Part shown: one piece after another, positions 5,610 to 60,019 of the stretch
Layout: each line of letters opens with the position of its first letter
Numbering within the stretch: the first letter of the stretch is position 1
Source: Candidatus Roseilinea sp.
GTDB lineage: Bacteria; Chloroflexota; Anaerolineae; J036; Brachytrichaceae
Assembly: GCA_026003755.1 (NCBI GenBank)
Contig: BPHV01000002.1
Span: 310,001 to 374,000, forward strand
Direction: 5' to 3'
Length of the DNA: 64,000 nt
Translations under genes and position numbers: made by a program
The notes under the pieces: generated by a model
Seen by the model: only the letters and a program-made list of their open reading frames with translations
What the model was told of the DNA's origin: nothing
Databases searched by the model: none

Positions 5610-7145
5610 GTTTGCCGCCGGCGCAAGCTCGCCCAGCGCCAGCCGCTCCCCACGGATCGCGCGCCGCATGGCCTCGCGGTCGTCCCAGGCATACTCGGTT
5701 GTGCCGAAGCACAGCGATTGCTCGTGACCCTTGCCGCACGCCACGACCACATCGCCGGGGACAGCCAGCGCGCACGCTTGGCGAATCGCCTCGCCACGGT
5801 CCGGCTCATGCCTGATGACGGCGCGCGCCGGCTGAGCCGCCCGCGCGCCGCGGTCCATCTCGGCGAAGATGGCATCCAGCGATTCGCCGCGCGGATCCTC
5901 CGCGGTAAAGATGGCCACGTCGGCCAGCTCGGCGGCTACTTTGCCCATCAAGAAGCGCTTCTGCACATCGCGCTCGCCGGCGCAGCCGAAGACGACGATC
6001 AGCCGCCCCGGCCCAATGCGGCGCAGGGTGAGCAGGGCCTGCTCCAGCGCGTTCGGCGTATGCGCGAAGTCCACCACGGCCAGATAGGGTTGGCCTTCGT
6101 CTATGCGTTCCATGCGGCCGGGGATGCCGCGCAGGGCTGCCACGCCGAGCTGGATCGCCTCGGGTGACACGCCGAGCGCCAAAGCTGCGCCGGCAGCGGC
6201 CAGGGCGTTCGAGATGTTGTAATCGCCGATCAGGTGCGTCCTCAGCGGCAACGCGAGCGGCCGATCGCCATGCCGAAAGGCGTAAGCTTCGATGCCCCCC
6301 GCAGCGTGATCGGCGCGCGGCGCGTAGAGCCACCAGCCGCCGTAGTTGCCATTGGGCTGGATCTCGCGCGAATAGAAGATGCGTTGCCGAGCCGGCAACT
6401 TCACCAGATAGTTAAACGAGTAATCGTCGTCGACGTTCAGCACGTGAACCGGCGCCATCTCGAACAAGCGCGCCTTGGCGGCGCGGTAGGCTTCACGTGA
6501 ACCGTGTAGGTCGAGGTGATCGTGTGTGATGTTGGTGATCACGGCCACGTCGAAGTCCACGCCGTCCACGCGGTGATGCGCCAGGCTGTGCGAGGTCACT
6601 TCGAGGACGCAGTGCGTGGTGCCGGCGTCGCGCATCTGCGCCAGCAACGCCTGCACTTCATCGGCATCGGGCGTGGTGGTGTGCAGGCCGGTGTCCAGCG
6701 CCCGGTCGCCGACCCAGGCGTTGACCGTGCTGATCATGCCGGTTTCGTGACCCGCGGCGCGCAGGATGCTGAAGATCAAATTGGTCGTCGTGGTCTTACC
6801 ATCTGTGCCGGTGACGCCGACAACCGTCATCCGACGCGACGGGAAGCCATGCCACGCTGCGCAGAGTAGGGCGAAGGCGCGCCGACCGTTGGGGACGAGA
6901 ATTGAGAATTGAGAGTTGAGAGTTGAGAAACTCTCTTGTTCGTGCACGACCGCCGATGCGCCACGTTCGATGGCTTGCGGGATGAACGCGTGACCATCGG
7001 CTGCGACGCCTTTATAGGCGACGAAGAGATTGCCGGGCTGCACACGCCGTGAATCGTCGGTGACACCGGTGATCCAGATGTCCTGCGCGCCGGGCGGCGC
7101 AGACAAGCCGGCGCGTTCGAGCAAAGCGAGGAGCGACTGGGCCAT
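5592..7145 (-). CDS. murE: UDP-MurNAc-tripeptide synthetase (MurE)
   Basis: MurE adds the third residue, a diamino acid, to UDP-MurNAc-L-Ala-D-Glu in peptidoglycan synthesis. The ATP-binding loop is VGVTGTDGKTTTT (109-121). Other Mur-ligase features are EVTSHSLAHHRVDG, ITHDHLDLHG (206-215), GDYNISNALAA, and the C-terminal VVFGCAGERDVQKR. The length of 517 is normal. Two oddities stand out. The meso-DAP recognition motif DNPR is replaced by EDPR (416-419). Residues about 72-82 (STLNSQFSILV) are encoded by a tandem DNA heptamer that interrupts the usual sequence before the central domain. It lies 82 bp downstream of the LLM gene and may be read through from it. Confidence 0.93.
   Translation of the reverse strand: MAQSLLALLERAGLSAPPGAQDIWITGVTDDSRRVQPGNLFVAYKGVAADGHAFIPQAIERGASAVVHEQESFSTLNSQFSILVPNGRRAFALLCAAWHGFPSRRMTVVGVTGTDGKTTTTNLIFSILRAAGHETGMISTVNAWVGDRALDTGLHTTTPDADEVQALLAQMRDAGTTHCVLEVTSHSLAHHRVDGVDFDVAVITNITHDHLDLHGSREAYRAAKARLFEMAPVHVLNVDDDYSFNYLVKLPARQRIFYSREIQPNGNYGGWWLYAPRADHAAGGIEAYAFRHGDRPLALPLRTHLIGDYNISNALAAAGAALALGVSPEAIQLGVAALRGIPGRMERIDEGQPYLAVVDFAHTPNALEQALLTLRRIGPGRLIVVFGCAGERDVQKRFLMGKVAAELADVAIFTAEDPRGESLDAIFAEMDRGARAAQPARAVIRHEPDRGEAIRQACALAVPGDVVVACGKGHEQSLCFGTTEYAWDDREAMRRAIRGERLALGELAPAANEPPRP
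6897..6931. repeat. Tandem heptamer repeat inside murE
   Basis: Five consecutive heptamers on the plus strand read GAGAATT, GAGAATT, GAGAGTT, GAGAGTT and GAGAAAC. The last repeat runs into CTCTCTTG, so GAGAGTT (6918-6924) can pair with AACTCTC (6929-6935). The repeat stays in the murE frame on the minus strand and encodes a short Ser/Thr/Asn/Gln-rich insert. Its base use (AT-rich, G/A strand bias) differs sharply from the surrounding GC-rich gene. Confidence 0.8.
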
Positions 7146-58162: not shown

Positions 58163-60019
58163 TCACTGCGGATCTCCGTCAGTGCGTTGTTCCGCAGGCA
58201 ACAGCACCCAGTAATCGAAGCCGTTCATCCTGAAGTGGCGCGCCCAGTAGTAGTTGCGGAAGATCGCCTCCTTGACCTCATCGGGATAGAACAAGGCGCG
58301 GAAGACCACCGCGCCGAACGCGCGCTGCTCGATCATAGCGATCATGCGCGAGGTGTCGAGCATTCCGTTCTTGGATAGGTTGAGCAACTGCGTCGGGTTG
58401 GTCACTACGTCCTTGCCGGCCAGCAGCGTGAGCATCGCCTCCTCGCTCCACACCGGCCCCGGCACGCTGCGGATCATCTCCACCATCGCCCAGCCGTTGG
58501 CGGCATCCGCAGGGTCGAGTAAATGGCCGAGTTGCGTGAAACCGGCAGAATCATAGTAGGGATAGGGCGGATACGACGACGTATCGGCGACGCCGATCAA
58601 CCGCGCGATCGCGCCGAAGATTCGCCCGCTCGTCGGCAAATGCACGTTGAGCGCGGCTTGGAGGAAGAAGATCAGGGCGGCGAGCGCCGTGGCGAGCGCC
58701 GGCAGATAGGGCGCGCGGCGCTCAGCCCCCGACGCATCGTTCGTCGCAGCCGATGTTGGGCGCGCTGCATCGCGCGCGCCCTGCGCCTCATCCCCCAGGC
58801 GGCGCGCCAAGCGATGCGTGATGCGCACAAGCAAACCGGCCGCGCATACACACGAGGCTGCGATAGCGGCGATCAAGTAAGCCGGCCCGGCGCCCCACTT
58901 GCCGGTCAACATGCCCATCGCACTGCCGGCGACAAAGTAGAGCGACCAGATTGTGATCGGCCCGAACGAACGGGCGCGCGCTGCTCGCGCGACATCCCAC
59001 GCGACGTAGAGCGCGCTGCAAACGATCAAGACGCCCTGGAGCCGGAACCACTGGCCGTAGGTTTGCCAAGTGACGGCGATGTCATACGCATTCACGTTGG
59101 CCAGCACCACGTTCAACCAGAACTGGCCGTTTGTCGCCGCATTCATCGCCAGCACCAGCGCGCCGGTGACCAGCGCGCTGGCGGCAAGCGCCAGCGCAAA
59201 CCACTTTGGCCGCCGGATCAGCAAATACGTGAAACCGGCAACCAGCGCGTCCACCGCTTGCAACTTGGTCAAGCCCGCGGTCAGGAGCAGGACGACGCCT
59301 AGCGCGCTGTATCTCGCCCGCGCAGCCTCCGGCGACGCGCGGCGCGGGTCCAGGCCGATGTCCAGGCAACTGATCCCGGCGAAGGCAAACATCACCATCG
59401 GCACGTGTGCGCGCGCCAGCGGCCCGATCTGGTAGACGTAGTTCGCCGCAAAGAACGCCAGCGCGGCCAGCATGGGGACAAAGAGGCGCAGGAGAGCAGG
59501 GAGCGGAGGTCGGAGATTGGAGAGTGGAGATTGGGGCTCTCTGCGCAATCTCCACTCTGCAATCTCTAATCTCTCCGATCGCCACCGCCGGCGCGCCGCG
59601 AGAAAGATCAGCGCGCCGATGACCAGTGATGCGGCAAAGGCGAGGGCGCGCCCCACCCACAGGTGCGGCCCGAACAACGCCACCAGCGGCGCGAGCACCA
59701 GCCGATAGACCGGCGGGTAATTCGAGGCATAGAAGGGGAACTCCGCGTTGTCCAGGTAGATGCCCTCCCCGCGCGCCAGGCGGATGGCGTCGTAGAGTTC
59801 AAAGCCTTCACCCTGGTCGTAATCGAACGGGAAGGCAAATAGCGCGCGGGCGTAGACCAAGTAAATGACGAAATAGCCGGCAAAGATGGCGATCGTCAGC
59901 CCCAATGCGACGACGGAGAGCGACGAAAGCGCAGCGCCGAAGCGTAAGTGCCGCAGCGCGCGCGGGGAAGCAGCCGGCGGCGTGAGTTCTTCAACCACGA
60001 TGCTGGCCGAATTTACCAC
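58163..60019 (-). CDS. GT-C-like multi-pass membrane glycosyltransferase candidate
   Basis: A 618-residue protein with about ten to twelve helices. The N-terminal outer loop FDYDQGEGFELYDAIRLARGEGIYLD and YASNYPPVYRLVLAPL recall the acidic and PP motifs of GT39-like enzymes, so a polyprenyl-sugar-dependent transferase is likely. The C-terminal part is extracellular, ending near RHFRMNGFDYWVLLPAEQ. The frame opens with a GTG at 60019. Residues about 150-170 (SERLEIAEWRLRREPQSPL and SNLRP) are encoded by a hairpin-forming repeat described separately. It precedes scpA in the same transcript. The acceptor is unknown. Confidence 0.7.
   Translation of the reverse strand: MVNSASIVVEELTPPAASPRALRHLRFGAALSSLSVVALGLTIAIFAGYFVIYLVYARALFAFPFDYDQGEGFELYDAIRLARGEGIYLDNAEFPFYASNYPPVYRLVLAPLVALFGPHLWVGRALAFAASLVIGALIFLAARRRWRSERLEIAEWRLRREPQSPLSNLRPPLPALLRLFVPMLAALAFFAANYVYQIGPLARAHVPMVMFAFAGISCLDIGLDPRRASPEAARARYSALGVVLLLTAGLTKLQAVDALVAGFTYLLIRRPKWFALALAASALVTGALVLAMNAATNGQFWLNVVLANVNAYDIAVTWQTYGQWFRLQGVLIVCSALYVAWDVARAARARSFGPITIWSLYFVAGSAMGMLTGKWGAGPAYLIAAIAASCVCAAGLLVRITHRLARRLGDEAQGARDAARPTSAATNDASGAERRAPYLPALATALAALIFFLQAALNVHLPTSGRIFGAIARLIGVADTSSYPPYPYYDSAGFTQLGHLLDPADAANGWAMVEMIRSVPGPVWSEEAMLTLLAGKDVVTNPTQLLNLSKNGMLDTSRMIAMIEQRAFGAVVFRALFYPDEVKEAIFRNYYWARHFRMNGFDYWVLLPAEQRTDGDPQ
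59513..59566. repeat. Hairpin-forming heptamer repeat inside the GT-C-like gene
   Basis: Left arm 59513-59533 and right arm 59546-59566 are 21-base inverted repeats with one mismatch, around a 12-base loop. Each arm is built of heptamers (GAGATTG, GAGAGTG, GAGATTG on the left). The element stays in frame. Its composition is unlike the surrounding GC-rich DNA and recalls the murE heptamers at 6897. Confidence 0.8.

Follow-up and report, generated by a model that had tools for sequence, protein, structure and literature searches.

A hairpin inside a membrane protein gene of Candidatus Roseilinea sp. as one copy of a dispersed convergent heptamer-repeat family

The hairpin and its host gene

The hairpin at positions 59506-59573 of the window (the whole stretch of DNA analysed, 64 kb, corresponding to G000:C2:310001-374000) is one copy of a dispersed family of convergent heptamer repeats in the 3.34-Mb genome of Candidatus Roseilinea sp. 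(G000, the study genome). As the original prediction stated, a near-perfect 21-bp hairpin lies there within a membrane protein gene: the arms at 59513-59533 and 59546-59566 mismatch at 1 of 21 positions around a 12-nt loop, and the repeat finder extended them to 28 nt each (59506-59533 and 59546-59573) with 86% complementarity. This structure (59513-59566) is the sole 21-nt inverted repeat in the 64-kb window when up to 2 mismatches and a loop of up to 40 nt are allowed. The GA-rich arm (59506-59533) is composed of the units GAGGTCG, GAGATTG, GAGAGTG and GAGATTG read on the + strand, and the CT-rich arm (59546-59573) of GAGATTA, GAGATTG, CAGAGTG and GAGATTG read on the − strand. The loop between them, GGGCTCTCTGCG (59534-59545), is identical in G007, a more distant congener, where it reads CGCAGAGAGCCC in the gene sense. 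Tandem GAGANTK pairs with at most one mismatch gave 8 matches in the window versus a shuffle mean of 0.51.

The host gene (58163-60019, − strand) is an open reading frame for a multi-pass membrane protein of 618 amino acids, in which the element is in frame at residues ~149-171 and reads as ERLEIAEWRLRREPQSPLSNLRP. The peptide is a polar loop sequence (EIGDWRL / QSPISNL), in agreement with the proposal that these elements code for polar loops, and the residues belong to a variable loop with hydrophobic segments on either side. Searches of Pfam, NCBIfam and PDB returned no match for the 618-aa protein, and PMT_2 was matched weakly by 1 of 12 aligned members.

The repeat previously noticed in murE proved to be real as well. 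This sister element (6897-6935, + strand) consists of the GAGANTT units GAGAATT, GAGAATT, GAGAGTT and GAGAGTT, the spacer GAGA and the inverted unit AACTCTC, and it lies within an open reading frame assigned to Mur ligase by Pfam. The GAGATTG type at 59506-59573 and the GAGAATT type of murE are sister unit types, and there is no sign that they are copies of one element. In convergent order the GAGAATT type gave 10, 4 and 1 matches in G001, G007 and G014 (three of five genomes), some of these matches being nested within one element, and in divergent order it gave none in any of the five. A recurrent inner core, GAGAAA...TTTCTC, is found in G001 and G007 with differing loops, and one hairpin of this type (G001:C75:14921) is identical to another at G007:C1:486668.

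Distribution, polarity and coding copies of the family

The genome scan revealed other copies, and with them the dispersed repeat family that had been predicted. In the study genome the two-unit pattern is matched 58 times on one strand and 94 times on the other, versus 21 and 13 in the control, and the hairpin pattern GAGATT-(1 to 31 nt)-AATCTC has 28 matches versus 0. The same pattern, which has the GA-rich arm first, was matched 81 times in G001, 28 in G002, 75 in G007 and 74 in G014. It is present at least once in 36 of 41 genomes, with several low counts close to those of the controls. Among the matches listed for public stretches carrying the GAGATTG unit, 61 of the 80 that are named belong to Chloroflexota, and the hairpin is present in 26 of these 61 and in none of the other 19.

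The polarity of the family can be read directly from the sequence. The reverse, CT-first order was matched only 1, 1, 2, 0 and 5 times in G000, G001, G002, G007 and G014, and the places listed are unlike heptamer arrays. Moreover, adjacent array pairs in 113 public stretches are convergent in 54 cases, parallel in 9 and divergent in 1, a convergent preference that is gone beyond ~150 bp. Many copies of the family are one-armed, in either orientation. An apparent phase preference at the inner ends of the arrays was attributed to the strict definition of a unit and discounted as artefactual.

Individual copies were compared at 38 loci of the study genome, drawn from the first-listed portion of its 152 two-unit matches, so that the genome contains further elements beyond these loci. 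Three weak matches (L056, L066 and L082) were removed, and L093, which is the hairpin at 59506-59573 itself, was handled separately, leaving 34 loci. In a separate comparison of 38 loops of at least 8 nt, no two were identical, and between the study genome and the G002 orthologues the loop is usually retained where arm lengths differ.

Of the 35 elements examined, 14 are classed as coding on the basis of open frames and a third-position bias of substitutions (13 of the 34 loci plus L093). The other 21 are not classed as genic, although some of them may be, such as L067, where the surrounding der-like gene shows apparent frame errors. It had been suggested that the family either tolerates or targets genes; the coding copies speak for tolerance, and targeting is not supported, given the share of elements not classed as genic. 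The hosts named by Pfam include MutS, Mur ligase, adenylosuccinate lyase and glutamate synthase, in addition to FtsW/RodA-type, semialdehyde dehydrogenase, FAD/Fe-S oxidase and PMT_2-type proteins. Where an element differs in length from its G002 counterpart, the difference is divisible by 3 in all 9 genic cases and in 6 of 17 others (L061 had no anchors for this comparison), and these frame-keeping changes independently support the translation of the genic elements. Since 7 and 3 have no common factor, every frame of a GAGATTG array runs through one 21-nt cycle; none of the six frames contains a stop codon, which allows the arrays to be accommodated in frame within genes.

Some loci deserve separate mention. 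At L089 (G000:C5:122700-123900) a hairpin is in frame in mutS, in the MutS III region, with a length difference of 6 nt from G002. At L067 (G000:C1:746500-747800) the element is near the GTTRD motif of the der-like GTPase gene, and several apparent one-base indels around it break the frame, suggesting consensus errors in the assembly. By eye, the elements of L070 and L085 adjoin sequence resembling tRNA gene ends.

Origin of the arrays and transfer between congeners

Taken as a whole, the explanation that we consider reasonably probable is that of non-autonomous convergent heptamer arrays that are tolerated as in-frame spacers, change by slippage and are transferred in short tracts between congeners. 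Under this explanation GRGATTG units would point inward at a short, locus-specific loop. For the birth of an array at a new place, the most likely route is judged to start from a small palindromic seed that points inward, each arm then growing by slippage independently of the other. After birth, copies would gain or lose heptamers, and we infer slippage from these changes; within genes only frame-keeping changes have been seen. There the arrays would read as a polar spacer, probably neutral, and no function is ascribed to them beyond that of a tolerated spacer. Finally, copies may occasionally pass between congeneric species in very short tracts of homologous recombination. A point against this explanation is the lack of any clean empty site whose insertion boundary could be recognised.

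It is rather unlikely that the arrays descend instead from a mobile palindrome of the REP or MITE kind, which a transposase (Y1 of the RAYT type, or another) would have moved and slippage would have lengthened afterwards. The fixed polarity would fit descent from a single polarised palindrome, the GAGAATT type often shares its inner GAGAAA...TTTCTC core, and 16 of 25 genomes have Y1_Tnp matches, whose count rises with the hairpin count in the nine members of the genus (rho 0.71, p 0.03). However, over all 25 genomes this correlation vanishes (rho 0.04), and the stretches around 8 inspected Y1_Tnp loci contain one heptamer array in 2 cases and two arrays in none. GTAG/CGTC tags are no commoner at 73 hairpins than at random positions, and 6-bp direct repeats at the edges were found at 0 of the 73 (random, 5). 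A RAYT as the mover was considered less likely, given the missing tag and direct repeats and the lack of an overall correlation. The lack of recurring loops together with that of edge duplications speaks against recent copy-paste.

It is improbable that the arrays are scars of break repair, in which heptamers would be added by some activity to 3' ends at a chromosome break before these are joined around filler, with the geometry of a telomere fusion. Strict inward polarity, independent arms, unrelated fillers and one-armed arrays in both orientations would all be expected of such scars, heptamers replace other sequence at some sites, and telomerase-like repeat synthesis does exist in bacteria, as the excerpted report on DRT10 indicates (PMC12632851). 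Nevertheless, Ku is absent from 25 of 25 genomes, and the reverse transcriptase model RVT_1 (PF00078) has no match in G000, G002 or G007, the last a single contig with 75 hairpin matches, a result that covers the reverse transcriptases within that model. A telomerase-like reverse transcriptase as source and end joining by Ku were rejected on these absences. Furthermore, import from a lineage resembling G007 accounts better for several of the replacement sites. The wider form of this idea, interstitial telomere-like repeats in which a 7-nt repeat is appended to 3' DNA ends at breaks and joined, leaving a scar family in Chloroflexota and, with a related unit, in Xanthomonas, is very improbable.

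Selection of the stem as a DNA or RNA hairpin, be it a terminator, an mRNA stabiliser or a protein-binding site, is extremely improbable. The mRNA-sense strand of the hairpin at 59506-59573 does have a strong predicted fold (−42.1 kcal/mol, z = −7.9, with none of 200 shuffles as good), and one change with respect to G007 is shared there by its two arms (GAGAGTG / CACTCTC). This is an exception: mirrored variant units are identical in 6 of 113 cases in the public stretches, 2 of 54 in the study genome and 1 of 44 in G002, which is the shuffle level in all three sets. As the variant units of the two arms are not mirrored, stem pairing gives no general sign of selection, and selection as a general rule was rejected. 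Besides, many copies are one-armed, many are intragenic, and the hairpin has no match in Rfam. At L072 (G000:C1:1410400-1412000) the central segment of the element (593-653) is inverted between the study genome and G002. The arms can thus interact in single intramolecular events, and pairing is not what shapes the family.

Returning to slippage-grown, occasionally transferred arrays, the site at 59506-59573 bears on transfer. Outside the element region the study genome is 96.4% identical to G002, 91.2% to G003, 90.2% to G006 and 81.3% to G007, and in the tree it groups with G002. The heptamer pair is absent at this site from G002, G003 and G006, the three closest congeners, as well as from G004 and G005; thus, the comparison of orthologues did yield element-free alleles among close relatives. 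An element is present there in G007, where the 12-nt loop is identical, and in G001, where the element is longer. At residues 151-160 the identity of the study genome is 47% to G002 and 93% to G007, and in the flanking windows it is 90-100% to G002. This mosaic, visible in the aligned sequences, suggests a short imported tract. Because the loops of G002, G003 and G006 are alike, one short import would be likelier than two independent losses. The copy may therefore have entered the lineage of the study genome from a G007-like donor after its split from G002, a direction that we infer.

Ten of the 34 elements were compared with G007, G001 and G004. Four of them (L065, L074, L077 and L079) agree with G007 at nearly every base, and the full element is absent there from G002 and G006, and from G003 where the locus was found. 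L063 shares a longer version with G007, and L060, L061, L067, L068 and L092 show no such sharing. L065 has an exact run of 173 bp shared between the study genome and G007, and L074 has one of 158 bp; the former locus has the only run of at least four G007-type sites in 18.6 kb, centred on the element. Heptamers are absent from 7 of 11 G007-like islands in ~80 kb, and for a possible enrichment of elements in imported tracts the binomial P for 5/34 ranges from 0.0005 to 0.14, varying with the assumed background rate. The element may be a passenger, and transfer may be a general property of the study genome. A further segment of ~1.2 kb (L354:8025-9224) contains many G007-type alleles and no heptamers, which could reflect general short-tract recombination or chimerism.

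That the G007-like patches, or the element itself, are artefacts of assembly or binning is scarcely plausible: several element patches are identical to G007, and consensus error or chimerism, of which the apparent one-base indels in the der-like gene could be a sign, could make some exact patches, but the family is present in many genomes, the element at 59506-59573 differs from that of G007 at several bases, and the ends of the L065 patch share only ~11-14 bp with both G002 and G007, which is short for a k-mer chimera.

Comparison with known repeats

The convergent architecture in a unit that for the most part has no GGG tracts, together with the unmirrored arms, implies that neither quadruplexes nor stem pairing are needed as a cause, and the polarity itself then needs explaining. 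The family is of interest because it naturally documents in-frame insertions of peptides in conserved genes, and because it can mark very short tracts of recombination between species. In the literature searched on such repeats no description of a GAGATTG family in Chloroflexota was found, which is no proof of absence.

Dispersed heptamer arrays are known from cyanobacteria as STRR heptamers. The Nostoc GGGGA(C/T)T repeats are likewise dispersed; according to the excerpt of PMC4692102 only a few of them are paired, whereas convergent pairs are common in the family described here. In the same phylum, Chloroflexus aurantiacus has 22 (GATAGRA)n satellites (PMC6749651). These are GA-rich heptamers too, but the unit differs, and the excerpt of that paper does not mention a convergent architecture.

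Regarding palindromic elements, those of Rickettsia form families of ~150 bp with conserved peptides and, in the excerpted account, are found in frame in unrelated genes (PMC10969869). The present elements are similarly in frame inside unrelated genes; however, only the heptamer is common to the copies, and the loops differ from locus to locus. REP elements with GTAG/CGTC tags are dispersed palindromes, some of them intragenic, and Chloroflexi are included among their carriers in the excerpt of PMC3733652. Unlike REP, the present family has neither tag enrichment nor a consistent transposase partner, and unlike MITE it has neither edge repeats (0 of 73 at 6 bp) nor shared internal sequence (no identical pair among 38 loops).

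The closest known kind is that of the convergent GGGANTN heptamer repeats of Xanthomonas, and the family described here is a Chloroflexota variant of it. As far as the excerpt of Rehm et al. 2015 (PMC4692102) goes, the Xanthomonas repeats, GGGAATC / (GGGANTN)n, form 70 and 75 close convergent pairs in two genomes, are mainly intergenic (89-93%, with 7-11% intragenic) and are discussed in terms of G-quadruplexes. Both families have a G-rich 7-nt unit with nearly the same consensus, dispersed and heterogeneous units and close convergent pairs. On the other hand, the unit here is mostly GAGATTG, with GG only and rarely GGG, so that an interpretation through G-quadruplexes, as given for the Xanthomonas repeats, does not extend to it. 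Moreover, 14 of 35 examined elements are coding here, in contrast to the intragenic share given for Xanthomonas, and the phylum is different. What seems unusual in the present family is that it lies so often inside genes and, for the copy at 59506-59573, that it may have reached its gene from a related species.
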